The notes under the pieces were generated by a model. The model saw only the letters and a list, made by a program, of their open reading frames with translations. It was not told the origin of the DNA and did no database searches. Both the position numbers and the translations under genes were made by a program. Shown one piece after another: positions 5,455 through 40,509 of a stretch of DNA of 64,000 nucleotides. Position 1 is the first letter of the stretch. Every line of letters begins with the position of its first letter. The stretch comes from an uncultured Bacteroidota bacterium (GTDB taxonomy: Bacteria; Bacteroidota; Bacteroidia; NS11-12g; UBA9320). The stretch lies in assembly GCA_937124965.1 (NCBI GenBank), contig CAKZLB010000010.1, positions 94,750 through 158,749 of the forward strand, given 5' to 3'.

Positions 5455-8400
5455 ATGAAAACACGGTTACACATTGGCATATGGACAATTTTGGTGCTTT
5501 TTATATTACCACAGAAAGCTATTGCACAATCTGATTTGCGATTTCACCATTTGTTGGTAGGAAGTCAAAACAATGCTGAAATCGCGGCAATGGATATGTG
5601 TCGCGATGATTTTGGTTTTTTATGGATTGCAACATACAGAGGTCTCGCTAGGTTTGATGGGGATGAAATGACGCTGGTATCGTTTAGTAAGCCAGGCGGA
5701 ATAGATTATGGACGCCTAGAAATTCATCAAATGGTACCTCTAAAAAATGGACAGTTACTGCTAGCAACTGCGCGCAAAGGGTTGTTTATCTATCACACCA
5801 AGAACGGAGATTTCGAAGTGTTTAATTCAACAAATAGCACGCTTAGAAGTAATCAAATACGTGGAATTTGTGTAGATAAAACCGGAATAGTTTGGATTAC
5901 CAGTGAGGCAGGTCTTGATTTTATGAAACTGAACGATCGTACCATTTACCCTTTTGCACAAGCCAATCAGCAGTTTAATGCCAATGCTATTTTCAGTATG
6001 CATATGTCTCGGCGAGAACAACTTTTTGTTGCTACGCAAACGGGGGTGTTCAAACTTGAATCATGGCAAAATAATCAGCCTCAAATGAAAATGGTTTCGT
6101 CATTAACTGGTGTGTCCCACCTTTCTGAACGTGTTTCAGGAGAATTATGGATGGCCACTCGGCAAGGAGACTTATTTCGATGCGATATCAGTAACAATGA
6201 AATAATTGATAGCTTTTTGGCTACCGACAACCGAAATGCACTTCCACACGCCATAATTCGAACCGTTTTTACAGATCGTAAAAATAGATTATGGGTGGGT
6301 ACCCGCGATGGGCTTGCTTTATTCGATGAGGAGTCGAATGATTTCACAGTGTACAAACACATAGAGGGAAACTACAGTAGTTTAACCAATTCCACGGTAA
6401 ACGGGATTTACGACGATGACATGGGTCAGGTTTATTTTTTAACACAATCGGCCATTGATTTTATTTCACCTAATTCAAAACCCATTTCTGTATTAAACCT
6501 CCAATCGGTCGATAGCACAAGTCCACTTCTTACCGATCCACTTTGCACTTATAGAGATTCACGTGGAAGATTATGGATGGGGACATCAAAAGGTTTAGCA
6601 TTCGTCGATCATAATCAACGTTCACTGTTGCAACAAGGAAGTGGTTCGTGGCAAAGTAACTACGTTTTAGAAGTGCTTGAATTGCCAAATGGTGACCTCT
6701 ATTTTGCAACGAGCAAAGGACTGGCACTATTGACGAAAGAAAATTACGACGCACTTGACTTTTTCTTCTTTCCTTTCAGAAATAGACAGTTTGAGGGTGA
6801 AGGAGCAGCTTCGTTTCTAATTACTGATTTACATTATGACGGCAACGGTTTTCTGTGGATGTCGACCAATAATGGATATTCTCAATTCAATGTTACAACC
6901 CATGAGTTTCAATCGGCGAGGGATGAAGGGGAGTCAAGCGCATCAGGTGGTGGCAATGCCATGAATAAAATCATTGTCGACCAACAAGGAAACCTCTGGA
7001 TTGGCACGAGAAATTCCGGATTGCGTTTTATTGCCAAAGGCAATGCCTTCCAGAAAAACAAAATGTGCTATATAGTCAATGATCCAACTGTTGGAACTTC
7101 GTTAAGTAATGACGCCGTAACCGATATTTTCGAAGACAAACAGGGGAAGATATGGGTTTCTACCTATTACGGATTAAATCGTTTGGATACGTTGTTTTAC
7201 CCAAACGAACCAGCTAAATGCAGAGTATCGTTTACACGTTTTGGGAAAGATTTGGGTTGGCAAACGGAGGTATTTAGCAGTGTTCAGCAAGATCAAGCGG
7301 ATTTTTTGTGGGTTGGGTCCTTAGGTGGACTCTATCGTTTTAATCCACAAAAATCTGAGATTAACCATTATGCAATTCCAGATGGTTTAATTTCCGATGG
7401 AGTTATGGCAGACGGCCTAAAACTGTGTTCCGATGGTTACATGTATGTATCGATGCGCAACGGTGCTTCCTGGTTTCATCCAGATTCACTCGCATTGAGC
7501 AATGCACCTCCTTCAAAGCCCATTATAACACACTTTGCCCTATTTAACGTGGAAGTTCCGACCAGCGTAACGGCATCGGCTAATGCTCCTTTATTTTTGG
7601 TAAATGGGATATCTTACACCAAGGAAGTTTCCTTAAAACACGATCAAAATGTGATCACTATTGGATTTACAGGATTAGACATTTTAAACGTTTCCAAGCA
7701 GCGTTATCGCTATATGTTGGAAGGATTTGAACGCAATTGGGTTGAGTCGGGATACGAAAACTCAGCTACCTATACCAACTTAAGTCCAGGAGATTACACA
7801 TTTAAAGTCATGACCACAAACGGAGATGGAATTTGGTCACCAACAGCCGCGACGTTATCCATAATAGTGTTGCCACCTTGGTATCAAACTTGGTGGGCTT
7901 ACATTCTTTTCGCGCTCGTTTTCGTTAACCTTGTCTGGGCTTATGTCAAAACACGCATTGCAATCGTAAAGCGAGAAATGAACATTCGAATGGAAGGAGA
8001 GAAAAAAGTAAATGAAGCACGAATGGAAGAGCGCGAATTTATGCGACAAAAAAACGCCAGAGACTTTCATGATGAGACCGGTGTAAAGCTAACTCGTATA
8101 AACTTACTTACCACCGCTGCGAGTCAAAAATCCCAGAATCAACAGGTAAAAGACTGTTTGAAACAGATTGAAATTAATACGAAAGATTTGACCGGAAGCA
8201 TGCGCGACTTTGTGTGGTCACTTGATCCGCAAAAAGATACGCTATCGTCTATTTTACAGAGACTTCAAGATTTTGGCAACCAGTTATTTGAATATTCCGA
8301 AACTGCGTTTATTACTCAATCGTCATTTAGCGAGTGGCAACACATCGAATTAAGCTTTGATTCAAAATTTCAGTTATTGTTAATCTTTAAAGAAGCCATG

Positions 8401-8652
8401 AACAATGTTTCAAAGTATTCTCAGGCAGAATCAGTACAATTGAGCTGCAAAGAAAACGACGAAGGGATACTTATCTCCCTAACCGACGATGGAGTGGGTT
8501 TCGATCCGTCCATATCACGCGAAAGTTATGGGTTAAAGAATATGCAGCAGCGTGCAAACAAGTTAAATGCTAGGTTGGATATTTCGTCGACAATTGGTGA
8601 AGGATCAAGCGTGATAATTGTGCTACCAAAACCAAAACAAGACAACCACTAA
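5455..8652 (+). CDS. Sensor histidine kinase with two-component-regulator propeller and Y_Y_Y domains
   Basis: The frame opens at a TTG at 5398, but the ATG at 5455 is chosen because it begins a clear signal peptide (MKTRLHIGIWTILVLFILPQ), giving 1065 residues. Residues about 30-690 hold at least eight Reg_prop repeats (for example DDFGFLWIATYRGLARFDG, DRKNRLWVGTRDGLALFDE, DQQGNLWIGTRNSG), predicted to fold as two periplasmic propellers. A Y_Y_Y domain (about 726-802, with RYMLEGFERNWVESG) and one transmembrane helix (about 813-832) follow. The cytoplasmic part has a HisKA_3-type dimerisation motif, ARDFHDETGVKL, with phospho-acceptor His872. An HATPase_c domain has N-box FKEAMNNVSKYSQ (Asn about 983) and G-box DDGVGFDPS (about 1011). 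The protein should sense an extracytoplasmic signal and phosphorylate the regulator encoded 5 bp downstream. There is no fused receiver or AraC domain, unlike the hybrid version of this architecture. Confidence 0.92.
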   Translation: MKTRLHIGIWTILVLFILPQKAIAQSDLRFHHLLVGSQNNAEIAAMDMCRDDFGFLWIATYRGLARFDGDEMTLVSFSKPGGIDYGRLEIHQMVPLKNGQLLLATARKGLFIYHTKNGDFEVFNSTNSTLRSNQIRGICVDKTGIVWITSEAGLDFMKLNDRTIYPFAQANQQFNANAIFSMHMSRREQLFVATQTGVFKLESWQNNQPQMKMVSSLTGVSHLSERVSGELWMATRQGDLFRCDISNNEIIDSFLATDNRNALPHAIIRTVFTDRKNRLWVGTRDGLALFDEESNDFTVYKHIEGNYSSLTNSTVNGIYDDDMGQVYFLTQSAIDFISPNSKPISVLNLQSVDSTSPLLTDPLCTYRDSRGRLWMGTSKGLAFVDHNQRSLLQQGSGSWQSNYVLEVLELPNGDLYFATSKGLALLTKENYDALDFFFFPFRNRQFEGEGAASFLITDLHYDGNGFLWMSTNNGYSQFNVTTHEFQSARDEGESSASGGGNAMNKIIVDQQGNLWIGTRNSGLRFIAKGNAFQKNKMCYIVNDPTVGTSLSNDAVTDIFEDKQGKIWVSTYYGLNRLDTLFYPNEPAKCRVSFTRFGKDLGWQTEVFSSVQQDQADFLWVGSLGGLYRFNPQKSEINHYAIPDGLISDGVMADGLKLCSDGYMYVSMRNGASWFHPDSLALSNAPPSKPIITHFALFNVEVPTSVTASANAPLFLVNGISYTKEVSLKHDQNVITIGFTGLDILNVSKQRYRYMLEGFERNWVESGYENSATYTNLSPGDYTFKVMTTNGDGIWSPTAATLSIIVLPPWYQTWWAYILFALVFVNLVWAYVKTRIAIVKREMNIRMEGEKKVNEARMEEREFMRQKNARDFHDETGVKLTRINLLTTAASQKSQNQQVKDCLKQIEINTKDLTGSMRDFVWSLDPQKDTLSSILQRLQDFGNQLFEYSETAFITQSSFSEWQHIELSFDSKFQLLLIFKEAMNNVSKYSQAESVQLSCKENDEGILISLTDDGVGFDPSISRESYGLKNMQQRANKLNARLDISSTIGEGSSVIIVLPKPKQDNH

Positions 8653-33082: not shown

Positions 33083-35332
33083 TCACTGTTTCATAAACTT
33101 CAAAGCGTTTCCAGCTTCATCCATTAGTATATAAAGTCCAGAAGCATAGCTCGAAACATCAAGATTGATTTGTTGTAATCCATTTATAGCAAATGATTTG
33201 ATCACTGTGCCATTGATTCCAAGTATGGTAAACGTTTGATTAACTGATGATAGATTTTCTATGGTAAGAATACTGTTTGTTGGGTTGGGATAAACCTTCA
33301 AGTTGCCTACTTTGCTTGCTGTTTTTTTAATAGAAGACGCATCATCCACAAAGTAAATACTTGCGACATTTGTGTGAATACCATCTTCAAAATCAAAATA
33401 GATAATCGCTTTGTTTTTTATAGTATCTCCAATGGACTTAAAACTTGGAGCAACATCAATTTCGAAATTGACAAACCCTTGTGAGCCTTCAGGATCGCTC
33501 GCGCTATCTGGTAAATATATATCCTTAAACGTCCATTTTATGAGGTTATTTTGGATACTCATATCAAAATGTTCTGGATGACTTGTTCCCGTAACACGAA
33601 TGGAACTTGCATCTAGTCGGCTATCTAAGTAGTCATAGACGACCACATCTTTCGCGTCAGCGTTTCCTATATTTTGGAACTGCACGATATACCGAATCTT
33701 GTCAATTGGTTTATCGATTCCGTTTTCTGGATATGAAGTTTTTGCGTTGGGGTCATAAGGAGATCGAACTATAGCGAATGAACTATCTACATCGTTTTCT
33801 GGATAATTGTCAGTCTTAACCAATTGTGTTTTTAGAAAAACCGATTCCCCTTTTTTTAGGTCACCAAATTCATCGGACAGAGTAGTTTTAATATGTATTT
33901 TACCAAACCGTTCATCGTGATTTACTTTAAATCGTGCAAGTCCCGGTTTAATATTTTTTATCGGAACGTTTGCCCATTTGACTTTTTGTTTTGGGTTATA
34001 CCAAAAGTCAACTTCTAACGAATCATCTAGCGTATAAACGTTTGAATGTTGAATTGTGATGGAAACATCTGTAGTGCGACCTCTTATAAAACGACCATGT
34101 CCAAGTGAAACCCCAAGATCTACGGCACCAGAGTCAATGGCATAGATAATATCGTAGCTATGTGTAAAATCAATTTTGGTGTTGTTGAGTACCAATGAGT
34201 CTGTGTTGCATGAATTCTTTAACCCACGTATAAATTGACCTTGATGGTGTAACACATAATCTTCACCACCATATACAGTCATCTTATAGATACCAGAAGT
34301 GTTAGACTTACTTGTAAAATTCCAATCCTCAGAATAGATCACGGTTTCAATTGGTCTGTCAGAAGAGTCAAACGTGCAATTGTTATTTATATCAACAAAC
34401 GTGCGGCCACTAACCCATGACAATGGTTTTGATAGTTTACATGTCGTATCAATACAACCATCTGTTGCGTTTACGTATAAACAAACTTCATATTCACCAG
34501 CCACGTCATAGGTGTGTGTTGGTAACGGCTTATTCGATCGATTGCCATCTCCAAATTCCCATAGATATTGATTTGTAGAATCATAATGCCCTACCGTCAA
34601 TACAGTTAGTGTGCGATTAATAGTCTTAGAAGTGAAATCAGAATTCTTAACAGTACTAGGAGTAACCTTTTTTGTTTTAATACCAAAACAGCCGGTGTTA
34701 GCCACATAACTAGTAAGTTGTATTTCGTATTCGCCATTCCAATTAAAACGTTTTTTTACGTGTTGGCTATTACTACGGTCACCTTCACCCATAATCCAGA
34801 TGTACGATAAAGAATCACCTCTAGAGTATTCTATAGAACTGGTGAAATGCACCGTGTCCCCATTACAACGTTGACTAATTGTAAAATCAACTATAGGGTT
34901 TGGGTTAATGAAGTAGACTAAGTTGACGCTGTTGTTCTGATCGTTATCATCAGCATCAATGATGGAAATGTTGACATCAAAGGAACCTTCTTTATCAAAC
35001 GAGAATTTGTTTTCTATTCTCATTAATATAGAGCTATCAACCTCAAGGGATAACCAAAGTTTCTCAATGCTTGTGTCACTGCTCGACACCATCCGAACTG
35101 AGACACTTTGAACAAAAGTATCTGAGTAATTTGTAACTCTAATATATGGTTGATATTCCACGTTTAGACATCCGGTAACAGAATCTTCAAGACTGCTAAT
35201 TCCAATATCAAACGTGCTGTTCGTTCGATGAGTTGAGGTTACATCGGGGTCAGAAGTGGATGAAAAAACCTGAGACGAAAAAAAGATAATAAACAAGCAA
35301 ACGAAAGCCAATCGGTTGTTGATGTTAGTCAT
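33083..35332 (-). CDS. PKD-domain T9SS surface protein
   Basis: A 749-residue protein with a signal peptide (MTNINNRLAFVCLFIIFFSS). A CARDB-like first domain is followed by two PKD domains: LSYIWIMGEGDRSNSQHVKKRF and YLWEFGDGNRSNKPLPTHTY, about residues 145-305. An SdrD B-like unit with SGRTFVDINNNCTFDSSDRP follows (about 310-370). A domain reading RYIVQFQNIGNADAKDVVVY ... NKAIIYFDFEDGIHTN (about 545-655) also occurs in the 14414 and 50690 proteins. The C-terminus is T9SS type A (LKVYPNPTNSILTI, ASGLYILMDEAG). No enzymatic motif is present; this layout suggests a stalk-like adhesin. The gene ends 9 bp from the MITE-like element. Confidence 0.87.
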   Translation of the reverse strand: MTNINNRLAFVCLFIIFFSSQVFSSTSDPDVTSTHRTNSTFDIGISSLEDSVTGCLNVEYQPYIRVTNYSDTFVQSVSVRMVSSSDTSIEKLWLSLEVDSSILMRIENKFSFDKEGSFDVNISIIDADDNDQNNSVNLVYFINPNPIVDFTISQRCNGDTVHFTSSIEYSRGDSLSYIWIMGEGDRSNSQHVKKRFNWNGEYEIQLTSYVANTGCFGIKTKKVTPSTVKNSDFTSKTINRTLTVLTVGHYDSTNQYLWEFGDGNRSNKPLPTHTYDVAGEYEVCLYVNATDGCIDTTCKLSKPLSWVSGRTFVDINNNCTFDSSDRPIETVIYSEDWNFTSKSNTSGIYKMTVYGGEDYVLHHQGQFIRGLKNSCNTDSLVLNNTKIDFTHSYDIIYAIDSGAVDLGVSLGHGRFIRGRTTDVSITIQHSNVYTLDDSLEVDFWYNPKQKVKWANVPIKNIKPGLARFKVNHDERFGKIHIKTTLSDEFGDLKKGESVFLKTQLVKTDNYPENDVDSSFAIVRSPYDPNAKTSYPENGIDKPIDKIRYIVQFQNIGNADAKDVVVYDYLDSRLDASSIRVTGTSHPEHFDMSIQNNLIKWTFKDIYLPDSASDPEGSQGFVNFEIDVAPSFKSIGDTIKNKAIIYFDFEDGIHTNVASIYFVDDASSIKKTASKVGNLKVYPNPTNSILTIENLSSVNQTFTILGINGTVIKSFAINGLQQINLDVSSYASGLYILMDEAGNALKFMKQ

Positions 35333-35453: not shown

Positions 35454-36599
35454 TTAATTGAAATATTCTATGGTGTATCTCCACTCACTTTTATATGGTG
35501 ATCCTTCTGAGTGTTTTTGACGCTTGATAATATGACTGTACGTATTGTAAATAAAACGACTGATCTCAACTCTTGAACCTTCCGATTCGAACCGCCCTTT
35601 TATTTCACTAAGATTCCCATTTGTATCATACGAGTATTCCCAAACTCTTGGCGTTTCTACTTTCCCAAAAACCATGGCTTCCTTACGTTTTTTTAACAAT
35701 TTTTTACCGTCGTATTTGTAGGTGACAGTCGCCCATTTAACGACTGAGTCTAGGTCAAAACTAGTAAGTTCGTAATGATAGCGAGTCATGTTTCGATCGT
35801 CGTTATACGTATACGTTCGAGTCTCCAAATGATAATCACTGGTTGATTTTTTCAGTACAAGTAACCCGTTTTTATAGAAGAAGGAGTCATTCTTTTCCAA
35901 TCGAACATTCTTTTTACCACGATAATTTGAAGTAGTTTTAACCAGCCGTGTGGCAATTTTACCAGACGCTGTATATGTGTAATCTGTTCTTTTTTGCTGA
36001 TGTTCTGTGCTGTCCATCACAGTCTGAAGTAAACCTTCGTTATTATACAAGCAACTCACAACCGGACCTCCAATCATTAACATTTTTTTTAAAACAGGTC
36101 TTTGTATGGAATCATATGTTACTTGGTAGATATACCTTTTTTTATAGCCTTCTTCTTTGTACGAAATCGACTTTTTTCGTTTACCATTACTATCGATAAC
36201 ATGCTTCAGAACTGATTTTGAATTGGAAAACAACGTTGCCATTCCATCATCAAATTCTTTTCTATGGTCTTGTCCATCTGAGGTTGCTGTTTCATACTCT
36301 TCTCTGACCAATATCCCATCTTCATAGACATTTCTGTTTATCCTCATTTCGCGTACACCAATTACCTTTTCGAGCAGTCGTCCAAGAGAATCAAATGTTT
36401 GAACTTCATGTCGATCGCCTGCAGGACGAGAGATTGTTATACTTTTATACGGTTTTTTATCAAAATCCCACGTCTCAATAAAAGGAAAAAGGGTGTAGTA
36501 GTCCAACGCTTTTGTTGGATTCAATTCCGCCTCCGTTTGTGCATTCCCTACGATAGAAATGATACTGATTTGGACTAAAACTAGGAGGGTGCCTTTCAT
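35454..36599 (-). CDS. Secreted protein with YD-like repeats
   Basis: A 381-residue protein with a signal peptide (MKGTLLVLVQISIISIVGNA). The body is a series of strands of the type YTYTASGKIATRLV, FFYKNGLLVLKKS, YSYDTNGNLSEIKG and RTYTYNDDRNMTRY, about 20-25 residues apart. This resembles the YD repeats of RHS proteins but without an RHS core or toxin domain. Similar short secreted proteins are frequent in Bacteroidota and have no known function. It lies 125 bp downstream of the anti-sigma/barrel gene on the same strand and might be part of that transcript. No sorting domain or lipobox is present, so periplasmic location is likely. Confidence 0.65.
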   Translation of the reverse strand: MKGTLLVLVQISIISIVGNAQTEAELNPTKALDYYTLFPFIETWDFDKKPYKSITISRPAGDRHEVQTFDSLGRLLEKVIGVREMRINRNVYEDGILVREEYETATSDGQDHRKEFDDGMATLFSNSKSVLKHVIDSNGKRKKSISYKEEGYKKRYIYQVTYDSIQRPVLKKMLMIGGPVVSCLYNNEGLLQTVMDSTEHQQKRTDYTYTASGKIATRLVKTTSNYRGKKNVRLEKNDSFFYKNGLLVLKKSTSDYHLETRTYTYNDDRNMTRYHYELTSFDLDSVVKWATVTYKYDGKKLLKKRKEAMVFGKVETPRVWEYSYDTNGNLSEIKGRFESEGSRVEISRFIYNTYSHIIKRQKHSEGSPYKSEWRYTIEYFN

Positions 36600-36724: not shown

Positions 36725-38095
36725 CTAATGAATCCTATATGTCAATGTAGTTTGCAATTGCCCTAGTAAAGGTTTGTGTTTGTATGCTTTCATCATGGAA
36801 GTGCTCAATAACGTTTTGCGATAAACCAATTGGAGATTGAAGTGCTGATTTAGTCGATAAGAAGGACCAATACTTCCTGTAAATTGTGCTAATACATTTG
36901 TTAGATTTTTACTTGTCGACAGACTTTCAACCCCAGAAGTGGTGGTGAAATAAGTACCAGTGGTTTTGTAAAGAAAAGCAAGATTCGCACCTGCCGAAAC
37001 GAGCAAAGTAAGACGATTTTTGCCAAACGAATAACCAATATCGATTGGTACATTCACATATGAAAATGAAACCGGACAATTAGGACAATCGATTGAAGAA
37101 TTGAATGTTACGTTAGAATCTATGTCTCTGCGATACAAGTCAACTCGATTTCCCGAAGGAGTCTGATCGTAATATTCTTCCACTAAGACAATAGAAGTGT
37201 CGAACGTCCATACATCGTTTTGGGTCACGTAGTTTGTTTTCTCATTTAGCGTCAGGAAATCAGCACCTGTTTTTATCATCCAATGGTTTCGTTTCGCTAT
37301 AATGCTAAATCCAGCCCCTAAAGAAATCGAAGGCCGGTAATTGGTTGCAACCTGAATTAGTGGGTTAGCTTGTTGGTTGTACGTTGAGTAATTCCCCATC
37401 AATCCAACGTGCAAACTCCAGAGCTTTGGTTTTATAAGCATAGCGAAATCGAAACCAGAATGGTGAGCATTCAATGAATCCAGAGTAGATAATGACTTCC
37501 ATGGTATAGAATCTGAAAAAGAAAGTGCTTCTACATCAAGTATAGAATTACTTTTAGGTTTAAAAAAGGTGGAAGTTTTACGATCATACTCCAGGGCCAA
37601 TTGACTTGGTGTTTCGCTGGGCGAATTAACGACCAGTTTGGTTTGTTTAGGCTCAGGTGTTTGCACTTTAGTAGGCTGTGATGTTTTGCTAGTTAGTGTT
37701 GGATTGTTTGGTTGGAGAGCGGGCTTATTTGCCTCAATTTTTTTAGCCTGTATGTTGTTGTTTTCTTTTATGGTTAAAGGGTTACTTGAGTCGACGATGT
37801 TGGTTTGTTGCTCCTGATTTTCTTTCCGTTTTGATGAAATTACTTCAGTGTTTTTTAAAGATTTAGTTTGTTTTGGTGTACGATTTTCTGATAAAACGGT
37901 AGTTTGTTGCAGTTGGTAGGCACCGATAGATGCTGTAATAAGGAGTAAAAGTAAGAGAAGTAGTTTCTTGTTACGTTTTATAAATCCTCCATTACGCTCA
38001 ACGATAAGAGCTTCAACATCATCCCAATACTTGTCAGAAAAATCTAAACCTTTTCCATCAAGTCCTTTTTTAAATATGTCGTCTATCCGTTTCAT
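36725..38095 (-). CDS. Anti-sigma-like N-terminus fused to outer-membrane beta-barrel (Dma-like)
   Basis: A 456-residue protein of unusual design. Residues 1-43 are soluble and charged (KRIDDIFKKGLDGKGLDFSD, then KYWDDVEALIVERN), resembling the short sigma-binding segment of Bacteroidota anti-sigma factors. Residues about 44-61 (KLLLLLLLLITASIGAYQL) form one inner-membrane helix. A Pro/Thr/Asn/Gln/Lys-rich linker (about 62-170) could cross the periplasm. The C-terminal half (about 210-456) reads as an outer-membrane beta-barrel (LHVGLMGNYSTYNQQ, SISLGAGFSII, LTLLVSAGANLAFLY, final LQTTLTYRIH). Its ATG overlaps the sigma factor stop (TAATG). I recall that such dual-membrane-spanning anti-sigma factors (Dma) have been described in Bacteroides; this looks like a family member. 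It would pass an outer-membrane signal directly to the sigma factor. Confidence 0.82.
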   Translation of the reverse strand: MKRIDDIFKKGLDGKGLDFSDKYWDDVEALIVERNGGFIKRNKKLLLLLLLLITASIGAYQLQQTTVLSENRTPKQTKSLKNTEVISSKRKENQEQQTNIVDSSNPLTIKENNNIQAKKIEANKPALQPNNPTLTSKTSQPTKVQTPEPKQTKLVVNSPSETPSQLALEYDRKTSTFFKPKSNSILDVEALSFSDSIPWKSLSTLDSLNAHHSGFDFAMLIKPKLWSLHVGLMGNYSTYNQQANPLIQVATNYRPSISLGAGFSIIAKRNHWMIKTGADFLTLNEKTNYVTQNDVWTFDTSIVLVEEYYDQTPSGNRVDLYRRDIDSNVTFNSSIDCPNCPVSFSYVNVPIDIGYSFGKNRLTLLVSAGANLAFLYKTTGTYFTTTSGVESLSTSKNLTNVLAQFTGSIGPSYRLNQHFNLQLVYRKTLLSTSMMKAYKHKPLLGQLQTTLTYRIH

Positions 38096-38667
38096 TAGTT
38101 CGAATTTGACACCTTAACTTTTGGTGTATTTTCTATTGTTTTTATTTCCATTTGTTTCTTTAGTTTTTTGCGAGCATCAGAAACATGCCATTTACTCGTT
38201 CCTTCTGAAATTCCCAACATGTCAGCGATTTCCTTATGTTTGAATCCATCTATTGCATAAAGATTAAATACATTTTTCGTTGTTAATGGAAGTACTTCCA
38301 GCATATGTCTTAACTCCTCTTCTTCCCATTTTTCTTCAATTAAATTTATACTCGTTTGCTCATTTGAATCATGAAAATCGGTTATTAATGTTTTTTCAGT
38401 GTATCGAGCAGTTTTCCTAAAATCATCGATAATGTGGTTTACCAATATATGTCGGATCCAAGTTGCCAAAGCATATTTCGAGTCATAGGTTTTAATTTTA
38501 TTTAACACTTTTAAAAAGCCAAGATTCATAGCCTGTAAAGCATCATCTTGATTGTCGTAATAACGAAGTGCAATGCTGCTCAACAACGGGAAATATTTTT
38601 TATACAATGTACTCTGACAACGTCTGTCATTAGAGATACAACCTTGTACTATTTCCTCTTCCGTCAT
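38095..38667 (-). CDS. ECF-type RNA polymerase sigma factor
   Basis: A 190-residue sigma-70 family protein. The sigma-2 region (about 20-85) has LYKKYFPLLSSIALRYYDNQ and TWIRHILVNHIIDDFRK. The sigma-4 region (about 118-170) has LPLTTKNVFNLYAIDGFKHK and EIADMLGISEGTSKWHVSDA as helix-turn-helix. Its stop overlaps the start of the anti-sigma/barrel gene by one base (TAATG), which fixes the pair. It lies 24 bp downstream of a T9SS-protein gene on the same strand, so all three may be co-transcribed. Such sigma factors usually activate their own operon and a small regulon of envelope genes. Confidence 0.95.
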   Translation of the reverse strand: MTEEEIVQGCISNDRRCQSTLYKKYFPLLSSIALRYYDNQDDALQAMNLGFLKVLNKIKTYDSKYALATWIRHILVNHIIDDFRKTARYTEKTLITDFHDSNEQTSINLIEEKWEEEELRHMLEVLPLTTKNVFNLYAIDGFKHKEIADMLGISEGTSKWHVSDARKKLKKQMEIKTIENTPKVKVSNSN

Positions 38668-38691: not shown

Positions 38692-40371
38692 TTAGTGAAC
38701 TACCACTATTTTTTGAGAATATATTCCGTCATTTGATTCTACAATCACAAAGTACACTCCGTCCACTAAAGTACTAGCATCTACGTTTAATCCATTAGAA
38801 TACTTGGTTGGGTCAACAGTTTTTGTGTAGACCCGCCGTCCCGTTTTATCCAATAAAGATACGTTTATCGTATGAGTGAAGGGTGTATTTGTGTTTATCG
38901 TAAACGTTCCGTTGTTTGGATTGGGGTAAACAACCATTGTTGCATTTGTGATTGGCTCAATGGATGAATTCTTACCATCTCGAACAATTATTTTAAAGGG
39001 ATTTACATTTGCGTATATCGTATCACAGAATGAACTTGAACATGAGGTGTCGGCAGTGCTGATAGTCAAACATACTATGTATGTTCCAGCTTTGCTGTAT
39101 GTGTGCGTTGGAGTGCGATCTTGAGATTCGTTCCCATCTCCAAACGTCCAGAAATACTTGGTTCTACTATCTACACCTCTGCTATTTTCAATAATAAAAA
39201 GTTCATCCTTAACGGTTGTGTCAACACCAAAATAGAACGATGCTTGACATTTTGGAGATGGGGAGCACGTATAGCGTGGTTTTAGTAAAAAAGGTGTAGA
39301 TATAATGGTCGACTTTAACCCAGAAGTATCTTTTTTATCATACTTGAATGAGTCAATTTGTTTAAATGAAGTTGTCCCCCAATAACAGTTTGAAAAATCG
39401 AGGCCAAACGTTCTATTGAGCGCAGAATCGACCTGAATCGCAACTTTTTTCGTTGGTTTTAAAGGCCAATTTGAATTCTGAATTAGATTCAAAAAGTTGT
39501 TATATGAAAAGCTGAAGTTGGGTAGTGATGTAGATGTGTGAATATTTAGCATCCCATAAGTCGGTAAGAACATCAATCTCGCACCGACACTGTCAAGCGT
39601 ATTATAACTGAATGAACCATTGTCAAACGTGTCTAAATCTAAATGTAAAGCCGTAACATTTTTAAACGTGTTACAGTTGATTTCTCCTTGTTTAATGATA
39701 TAAAAGTGCGAGCTATCTGCTTCGTTAACGTAATTATTTTTAAACGAAACATCTCCTTGAATTGACCAATACGACCGTTCAATAGTGCTGTTTGAAATGT
39801 CAAATTTGAAGTAGTTTTTATCTGGCCAAATATGCGACCAGGATGGACTTGTAATTGGACTTGTTGTAAATACGAACTGAAAAAAACTGCAGCTATCTGC
39901 AATGATGGAAGCGCTGTCTGGTGAAGAAACAAAGCTAAGAAGAGAACCAAACTCGCCAGATTTGAAGACACAATTCTGAAAACCAACATTAGCTCCTTTA
40001 TACTTCTGACTATTATTAAACGAGCAATGTTCAAAATAGCAGCCTCCTTGATTCAATATGTCATAGTTTTTGGAGTCTTCTCGAAAGTCTAAAGAAACGT
40101 TTACAAAATCGATGGAGCTGTCCTTAGTTCCCATAGCCAACAGTTCGCCATTAACAATAAATTTAGTCCTTGGAACTTCGGATGATACTGTCACTCCGGG
40201 CATTATTTTAATCGATATATTTTTGAGAATCGTTGTGGAATCTGTTATGATATATGGACTTCCGGCAACGGTCCACACTTGGTTTGTGCTAATGGTATTT
40301 GGCACATTGGTGGATGCTAAGCAAGTCATCCAAACTAGTATTGTACAACATACTGTAAGAATTTTTTTCAT
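38692..40371 (-). CDS. Beta-helix/PKD T9SS protein upstream of sigma factor
   Basis: A 559-residue protein with a signal peptide (MKKILTVCCTILVWMTCLAS). Residues about 30-340 form a right-handed beta-helix with typical IKIMPGVTVSSEVPRTKFIV and EHCSFNNSQKYKG stretches, then a run of strand-turn units with Asn and Ser. A PKD domain (KYFWTFGDGNESQDRTPTHTY, about 375-445) and a T9SS type A domain (MVVYPNPNNGTFTI, DGVYFVIVESNDG) follow. The gene directly precedes the sigma/anti-sigma pair by 24 bp, so it may be a target or effector of that regulatory unit. No catalytic motif is visible. Confidence 0.85.
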   Translation of the reverse strand: MKKILTVCCTILVWMTCLASTNVPNTISTNQVWTVAGSPYIITDSTTILKNISIKIMPGVTVSSEVPRTKFIVNGELLAMGTKDSSIDFVNVSLDFREDSKNYDILNQGGCYFEHCSFNNSQKYKGANVGFQNCVFKSGEFGSLLSFVSSPDSASIIADSCSFFQFVFTTSPITSPSWSHIWPDKNYFKFDISNSTIERSYWSIQGDVSFKNNYVNEADSSHFYIIKQGEINCNTFKNVTALHLDLDTFDNGSFSYNTLDSVGARLMFLPTYGMLNIHTSTSLPNFSFSYNNFLNLIQNSNWPLKPTKKVAIQVDSALNRTFGLDFSNCYWGTTSFKQIDSFKYDKKDTSGLKSTIISTPFLLKPRYTCSPSPKCQASFYFGVDTTVKDELFIIENSRGVDSRTKYFWTFGDGNESQDRTPTHTYSKAGTYIVCLTISTADTSCSSSFCDTIYANVNPFKIIVRDGKNSSIEPITNATMVVYPNPNNGTFTINTNTPFTHTINVSLLDKTGRRVYTKTVDPTKYSNGLNVDASTLVDGVYFVIVESNDGIYSQKIVVVH

Positions 40372-40509
40372 AGGTATTTACTGTTTATGTCGGTATATAC
40401 GCAAATATGAAAGTGATGGTTGGGTAGATTTAAAACATTTGTGAATTTTAGCTAATTGAAAGTTAAGAGTTGAAAGTTATAAACTCTTCAATTACAATCA
40501 ATATAGAAA

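Follow-up and report, generated by a model that had tools for sequence, protein, structure and literature searches.

A likely operon linking an ECF sigma factor and a Dma-like, predicted dual-membrane, putative anti-sigma factor to a T9SS cargo gene in an uncultured Bacteroidota bacterium

INTRODUCTION

FecA-FecR-FecI-type signalling relays an outer-membrane event to an ECF sigma factor by way of separate receptor and anti-sigma proteins. The Dma class of anti-sigma factors is described, in the available text of PMC13088901, as solely Bacteroidota, and its members Dma1 and Dma2 of Bacteroides thetaiotaomicron, which go with the ECF21 sigma factors Das1 and Das2, are built from an N-terminal sigma-binding segment, a transmembrane helix, a disordered tether and a barrel, with the ECF sigma gene adjacent. 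According to the available part of PMC9308784, the M0N98_03760-61 pair of Phocaeicola vulgatus comprises a large anti-sigma factor, predicted to cross the periplasm and to end in an outer-membrane barrel, and an upstream sigma gene. Two open-access reports come nearest to linking such anti-sigma factors with T9SS cargo: in Porphyromonas gingivalis the surface CTD protein PorA influences SigP signalling through PorXY (PMC7712824, available part), and in Flavobacterium psychrophilum promoter class SM6 is reported, in the accessible portion of that study, to contain T9SS genes together with one ECF/anti-sigma pair. The TamL paper, in its accessible portion, cites the Dma work.

Here, we analyze a 64,000-nucleotide stretch of DNA (the window, whose coordinates are used throughout) from an uncultured Bacteroidota bacterium with a genome of 4.09 Mb in 79 contigs. 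The minus strand carries, in this order, genes for a 559-aa T9SS type A cargo, a 190-aa ECF sigma factor and a 456-aa Dma-like, likely anti-sigma protein. The end of the cargo gene lies 24 nt from the start of the sigma gene, and the sigma and anti-sigma genes share one base within TAATG, an overlap already pointed out in an original prediction made from this DNA. The same prediction valued the locus as a Dma homologue in a different lineage; the predicted architecture agrees with a Dma-like protein, but the lineage argument is weak, since the Dma class is described in the available text of PMC13088901 as confined to Bacteroidota, to which the window also belongs, and so presence alone is not new.

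RESULTS

The sigma factor is paired with a protein of predicted Dma layout

The sigma gene (38095..38667, minus strand) encodes a 190-aa protein whose top NCBIfam match is the general ECF model TIGR02937 (86.5 bits, cut-off 42.9), and which also exceeds the cut-offs for Sigma70_r2 and Sigma70_r4_2; no ECF21 model was among the best 25 of 113 families for this protein. The adjacent 456-aa protein (36725..38095, minus strand) was assessed by a structure model built from a 36-sequence alignment, by fold comparison and by sequence alignment. Residues 1-42 (37970..38095) form a predicted cytoplasmic anti-sigma segment with model helices at residues 2-12 and 21-33, followed by a predicted inner-membrane helix at residues 43-64 (37904..37969), where the hydropathy peak begins at residue 45. 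A disordered periplasmic tether of about 157 residues is predicted next (residues 65-221, 37433..37903); it is the least conserved segment, its pLDDT is mostly below 50 (residues 64-201 and 207-221), and it leads to a predicted OmpA-like outer-membrane barrel at residues 227-456 (36728..37417), which we modelled for the window protein only. The predicted layout of two short N-terminal helices, membrane helix, tether and OmpA-like barrel is that of the published Dma proteins. A charged N-terminus, one transmembrane helix, a linker and an outer-membrane barrel had been proposed from the start, with structure prediction as the check, and the model bears this arrangement out.

Pfam barrel models were sub-threshold or silent for the 456-residue protein and its paralogues, and FecR was not matched by this protein among Pfam families up to E 0.1. 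The context of a FecR/FecI-type pair was likewise not seen, as the pair is flanked by the T9SS protein and a 381-aa protein rather than by a TonB-dependent receptor. When the full anti-sigma protein was used as a single-sequence query, only the protein itself was recovered, and its profile recovered two proteins (in both searches, scoring was confined to the 7997 candidates with the most shared words); we suspect that words from the tether are behind this poor yield. The barrel region alone as query found three proteins, and a sequence search of the PDB with the anti-sigma profile gave no meaningful match.

A CxxC motif at residues 337-340 (37076..37087, minus strand) falls in a loop that would be outside the cell if the barrel has OmpA-like topology. 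It is present in 13 of 14 aligned anti-sigma orthologues and absent from the one at locus L165. The loop as we would delimit it, residues 288-342, and extracellular in the same topology, is conserved about as well as the strands (p 0.35) and modestly better than the other loops (Mann-Whitney p 0.03).

The 381-aa protein (35454-36599, minus strand), encoded directly 3' of the anti-sigma gene, has an RHS-repeat match of 24 bits (cut-off 22) in which no single stretch is significant, and a search for homologues in the loci then sampled found only itself. Two genes past the anti-sigma gene lies a second T9SS-tagged protein, with PKD and DUF7619 domains (33083-35332, minus strand).

The gene upstream of the pair encodes a modular T9SS type A cargo

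The 559-aa protein (38692..40371, minus strand) consists of a variable N-domain, a PKD domain, a conserved linker and a sorting domain. PKD_4 matches residues 394-449 (3.5e-13), Por_Secre_tail (PF18962) matches residues 481-557 (3.9e-12; 46.7 bits, cut-off 27), and TIGR04183 scores 42.8 bits (cut-off 23). With a sorting domain above curated cut-offs and a SprA gene in the same genome (SprA family, 2362 bits), the protein fits a T9SS type A cargo and would presumably be secreted. At least 150 TIGR04183 matches are present in the genome (of 221 candidates, 150 were scored), along with 41 to CHU_C, 40 of which exceed the cut-off; several of the TIGR04183 matches fall inside the window, which is rich in T9SS-tagged genes.

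A structure model of the cargo built from eight sequences gave a confident PKD domain, a moderate CTD and a low-confidence N-domain. In an alignment of 12 cargos, the window's included, the N-domain judged by eye is of the window type in eight and of another type in four (L156, L157, L163 and L166), while the PKD domain, linker and sorting domain stay conserved and four cysteines are invariant. The PKD plus linker module (residues about 375-477, 38941..39249) is thus retained where N-domains differ. Most of its nearest relatives belong to sigma-linked cargos, those at L104 and L201 being among the exceptions.

The gene row opens with a conserved ECF-style promoter motif

Ahead of the cargo gene, motif search placed a sequence in the style of an ECF promoter, CCCAACC-N16-CGTATATA (40394..40424, minus strand); with the TATA extension read, the window motif is CCCAACC-N16-CGTATA. 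CCCAACN{16,18}CGTA has one match in the window (40398-40424), where shuffles predict 0.08. Among 18 upstream regions, from window-type operons and more distant ones, CAAC-N17/18-CGTA occurs in nine, versus a maximum of 4-5 in eight shuffles. In the family and order, 12 of 13 evaluable operons have a looser form, C[CT]AA[CA]-N16-19-CGT[AGC], that begins 46-55 nt ahead of the start of the cargo gene, this start having been moved by hand to the signal-peptide methionine at L152 and L157; the motif is absent at L163. At more distant loci, L170 has none, and L172, L174, L175 and L183 have only a CGTG version at varying distances. Scans for sigma-70 promoters and terminators stayed at chance level.

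CCAAC[ACT]-N16/17-CGTA has eight matches in the 1.95 million positions of the sampled family loci and the window. The window's own genome holds two exact sites, with one for a reversed-pattern control. The second of these lies 23 nt upstream of a called, T9SS-tagged ORF. If translation is taken to begin at a later methionine, at a distance of 185 nt, the protein scores 30.9 bits for PF18962 (cut-off 27); since the control also gave one site, this second site could be due to chance. Across 14 relatives we counted 17 exact sites versus four control sites. Operon promoters account for seven of the 17, including one ahead of L164, the collapsed locus described below, and the other ten lie elsewhere; in five of the 14 relatives (G007, G008, G009, G033 and G052) the genome has no exact match other than the operon site. 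Allowing two mismatches gave 67 sites versus 66 for the control, and because this is control level, only exact sites were used genome-wide. These counts predict a small regulon.

Gene order is conserved in related genomes

The anti-sigma protein or its relatives are found in 16 of 58 related genomes, the window's own genome counted, and 16 loci were taken from the 15 others; L161 and L162 are closely related. At 13 of these 16 loci, the gene immediately upstream of sigma, on the same strand and at a gap of 12-81 nt, encodes a T9SS type A protein, only the last 111 cargo residues being on the contig at L160. As for the remaining three, the sigma gene is off the contig at L159, the region looks collapsed at L164, and the cargo lies downstream at L167. 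The L164 region (genome G018) has a 128-aa ORF at 8249-8635 in which PKD-like residues are followed by the second half of the sigma factor, with the promoter motif and the anti-sigma gene kept, a state that reflects either a deletion or an assembly artefact.

T9SS genes are enriched beside long-class pairs

We classed 99 sigma ORFs by their partner, drawing on 21 loci of the window's own genome (window included) and 80 loci of the family. The own-genome set comprises 22 of the 27 sigma region-4 matches, five low-scoring ones left out, plus one further sigma ORF; the family set is the first 80 listed loci from other genomes, four of which have no called sigma ORF. In the family, the long class was defined by a partner length of 380-620 aa and the gap alone, and 27 of the 29 long-class partners have a hydropathy peak (those at L039 and L075 do not). 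T9SS genes were called with purpose-built profiles, and NCBI's TIGR04183 was applied to outer neighbours in the long and short classes.

An adjacent same-strand T9SS gene was found at 24 of 29 long-class loci versus 2 of 48 loci with a short single-TM partner, another partner or none (Fisher p 6e-13, a value inflated by shared descent because orthologues from related genomes are counted). The safer comparison is the own genome alone, where the long class has 7/9 and the others 0/13 (p 2e-4); the two long-class pairs without a cargo neighbour are L040 and L041. The 48 omit one locus without a downstream gene and 21 loci with a CHU_C-tailed partner, which show a T9SS neighbour in 3/21, an undercount because the downstream ORF mostly leaves the fetched stretch. 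With TIGR04183, the outer neighbours match in 31 of 50 cases for the long class versus 4 of 69 for the short class, whose count with purpose-built profiles was 5/72; three neighbours open at contig ends, one of them a purpose-built-profile match, were left out of the 69. The background frequency of T9SS-tagged genes in the sampled loci is 42/350.

Together, the conserved gene order, the promoter motif and this enrichment show that the cargo is part of the sigma/anti-sigma unit. The mention of the neighboring T9SS gene in the original prediction turned out to be the point that mattered.

How far this coupling extends was seen in 80 named loci with close sigma factors (the best 80 of 584; L189, L191 and L201 lack a called sigma ORF). 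Long single-TM partners are present in 50, and 10 of the 50 have an adjacent T9SS gene, upstream in eight and downstream in two, with a T9SS tag on 44 of 770 genes of 150 aa or more as background. Among these ten are UBA6491, MAGs of Saprospiraceae and Saprospirales, and the cultured Phaeodactylibacter luteus (L174, NZ_VOOR01000007.1), and Mucilaginibacter and Pedobacter loci have the pair and no cargo. Dma-like pairs are therefore more widespread than T9SS coupling, and we rejected a phylum-wide coupling on the 10/50 count among these best 80 of 584.

The N-terminal segment of the anti-sigma factor is conserved among relatives. A profile of its residues 1-38 (E < 0.01) matched long-class partners in 39/50 named and 8/29 family loci, short-class partners in 5/12 named and 1/37 family loci, and CHU_C-tailed partners in 2/5 named and 0/21 family loci.

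Six named loci (L172, L174, L178, L179, L182 and L183) have a protein of about 370-400 aa encoded 3' of the anti-sigma gene. These proteins look lipoprotein-like by eye, the one tested (L172:8824-9930) has PKD domains, and they are possibly another kind of surface partner.

Other operon types place sigma genes beside T9SS-tagged proteins

A row of sigma gene, long anti-sigma gene and T9SS cargo gene of about 800-825 aa recurs at 19 loci (L028, L037, L046, L074, L083, L090, L093, L098, L103, L104, L107, L109, L136, L138, L139, L141, L146, L147 and L151), where overlaps of a few bases are common. Both of the cargos tested from these rows have DUF7619 and a sorting domain. Upstream of sigma, CAAC-N16/17-GTCT occurs in 13 of the 19 operons (maximum 5-6 in five shuffles).

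A further candidate anti-sigma class, encoded beside an ECF sigma gene, has one TM helix and a T9SS type B C-terminus, an odd combination of an inner membrane anchor and a T9SS sorting domain. It occurs at 21 loci in all (for example L030:3969-5288) and in Crocinitomix catalasitica (L223:7539-8678), and is followed by a long ORF that mostly leaves the fetched stretch. TIGR04131, run on six of these CHU_C-tailed proteins, is over cut-off in three, below it in two and absent in the L030 protein, which passes the Pfam CHU_C cut-off. CAAC-N17/18-CATC occurs in 20 of 21 of these operons (shuffle maximum 5-7), and no comparable motif was found before the gene preceding sigma (best 6, shuffles 5-7). 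Comparing the three motifs, the groups have a -35-like CAAC in common and differ in the -10-like element. A universal -35 role for CAAC was rejected, as five type 3 operons examined by eye are without it at the expected place.

At L029 (1139-3559), L087 and L100, the product of the gene 3' of sigma is about 800-840 aa long and shows a hydropathy peak close to its N-terminus. The one at L029 contains VWA and YfbK C-terminal domains and is a candidate anti-sigma factor whose sensor would be VWA.

DISCUSSION

Our findings suggest that the three-gene row is likely one operon headed by the conserved ECF-style motif and that its sigma factor probably drives this operon and, above all, the cargo. The placement of a conserved promoter motif at the head of the row points to such self-regulation. 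We propose that the 456-residue protein would keep the sigma factor at the inner membrane by means of its short cytoplasmic helices, that the disordered tether would cross the periplasm and that the C-terminal barrel would report the state of the outer membrane or cell surface. A surface event may loosen this hold, and the freed sigma factor would then start transcription at CCCAACC-N16-CGTATA, yielding more cargo, sigma factor and anti-sigma factor in a small local loop. Since the sigma factor likely drives a surface protein, display on the cell surface would then probably depend on the condition of that surface.

The alternative that survives best is a general outer-membrane stress switch of the Dma/EcfO type, in which the barrel reports damage or misassembly and the T9SS protein is one protective output. 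We regard this as plausible, though short of probable. Published barrel anti-sigma pairs, in the available portions of those papers, react to envelope stress or influence vesiculation; one anti-sigma mutant of P. vulgatus has 15 differentially expressed genes, and the sigma gene there is up 33-fold after toxin exposure (PMC9308784, available part). However, such a switch leaves unexplained why a T9SS gene lies immediately beside the pair in several distinct operon types.

More tentatively, the cargo could also be the input, with the T9SS-delivered protein docking by its PKD-linker module on the outer side of the barrel, which would make the unit a sensor of secretion status or surface occupancy. 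The retention of the PKD-linker and sorting domain while the N-domain is swapped is in keeping with this, as are the mostly sigma-linked nearest relatives of the module, although some of these are not beside a sigma gene. The barrel loop is conserved about as strongly as the strands and CxxC is kept in 13/14 orthologues, but the loop is not above the strands and is only modestly above the other loops, and L165 lacks CxxC yet retains its cargo; a link between the CxxC and cargo cysteines is a guess. One candidate anti-sigma class itself carries a T9SS type B domain. FlgM/sigma-28 would offer a parallel, by analogy. In P. gingivalis, the CTD protein PorA affects PorXY-SigP signalling (PMC7712824, available part). 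Against all this, the cargo may simply be an output. It is possible, though less likely than not, that this forms a T9SS counterpart of secretion-coupled sigma control, with every barrel anti-sigma factor acting as outer-membrane receptor for its own T9SS-delivered partner; one polypeptide would then relay the arrival of that surface protein, its loss or a jammed T9SS directly to RNA polymerase.

Chance adjacency is highly improbable: T9SS-tagged genes are indeed very common in these genomes, both in the own-genome totals and in the 42/350 background, but the long-class excess in same-strand neighbors (24/29 vs 2/48) and TIGR04183 matches (31/50 vs 4/69) and the motif before the cargo gene of window-type operons argue against it, and the own-genome paralogues (7/9 vs 0/13) speak against an effect of counting orthologues.

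Returning to a sigma factor that probably drives its own surface cargo, the proposed circuit bears on how a bacterium with well over a hundred T9SS-tagged genes chooses which to display. It is concrete: the gene rows are defined, the promoter motif predicts targets, and a physical line may run from the outer membrane to the sigma factor. Cultured carriers of related loci exist in P. luteus, with an upstream cargo, and C. catalasitica, with the CHU_C-tailed class. The analysis also suggests T9SS cargo as a natural partner class for Dma-type anti-sigma factors.

Compared with described systems, pairs that look FecR-like sit in our short control class, which mostly lacks an adjacent cargo. In the open-access literature, as far as its accessible text goes, we found no paper that connects T9SS cargo with anti-sigma factors of the Dma type or with a barrel. 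The PorA-PorXY-SigP system shares with the window a surface T9SS CTD protein and an ECF sigma factor, but it uses a two-component relay to SigP and regulates T9SS component genes, and the available text describes no barrel anti-sigma factor (PMC7712824). M0N98_03760-61 resembles the window pair in architecture and gene order, and its mutant has few differentially expressed genes; it differs in responding to toxin and envelope stress, and the available part of the paper mentions no T9SS cargo gene (PMC9308784). Closest are Dma1 and Dma2 (PMC13088901, available part), a likeness judged by architecture: an N-terminal segment (here only putatively sigma-binding), a TM helix, disordered tether and barrel (here all predicted) and an adjacent ECF sigma gene are common to both. 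Unlike theirs, the window row begins with a T9SS-tagged protein that has a conserved promoter motif of its own, and this dedicated, likely self-driven coupling to a T9SS surface cargo is the new part.
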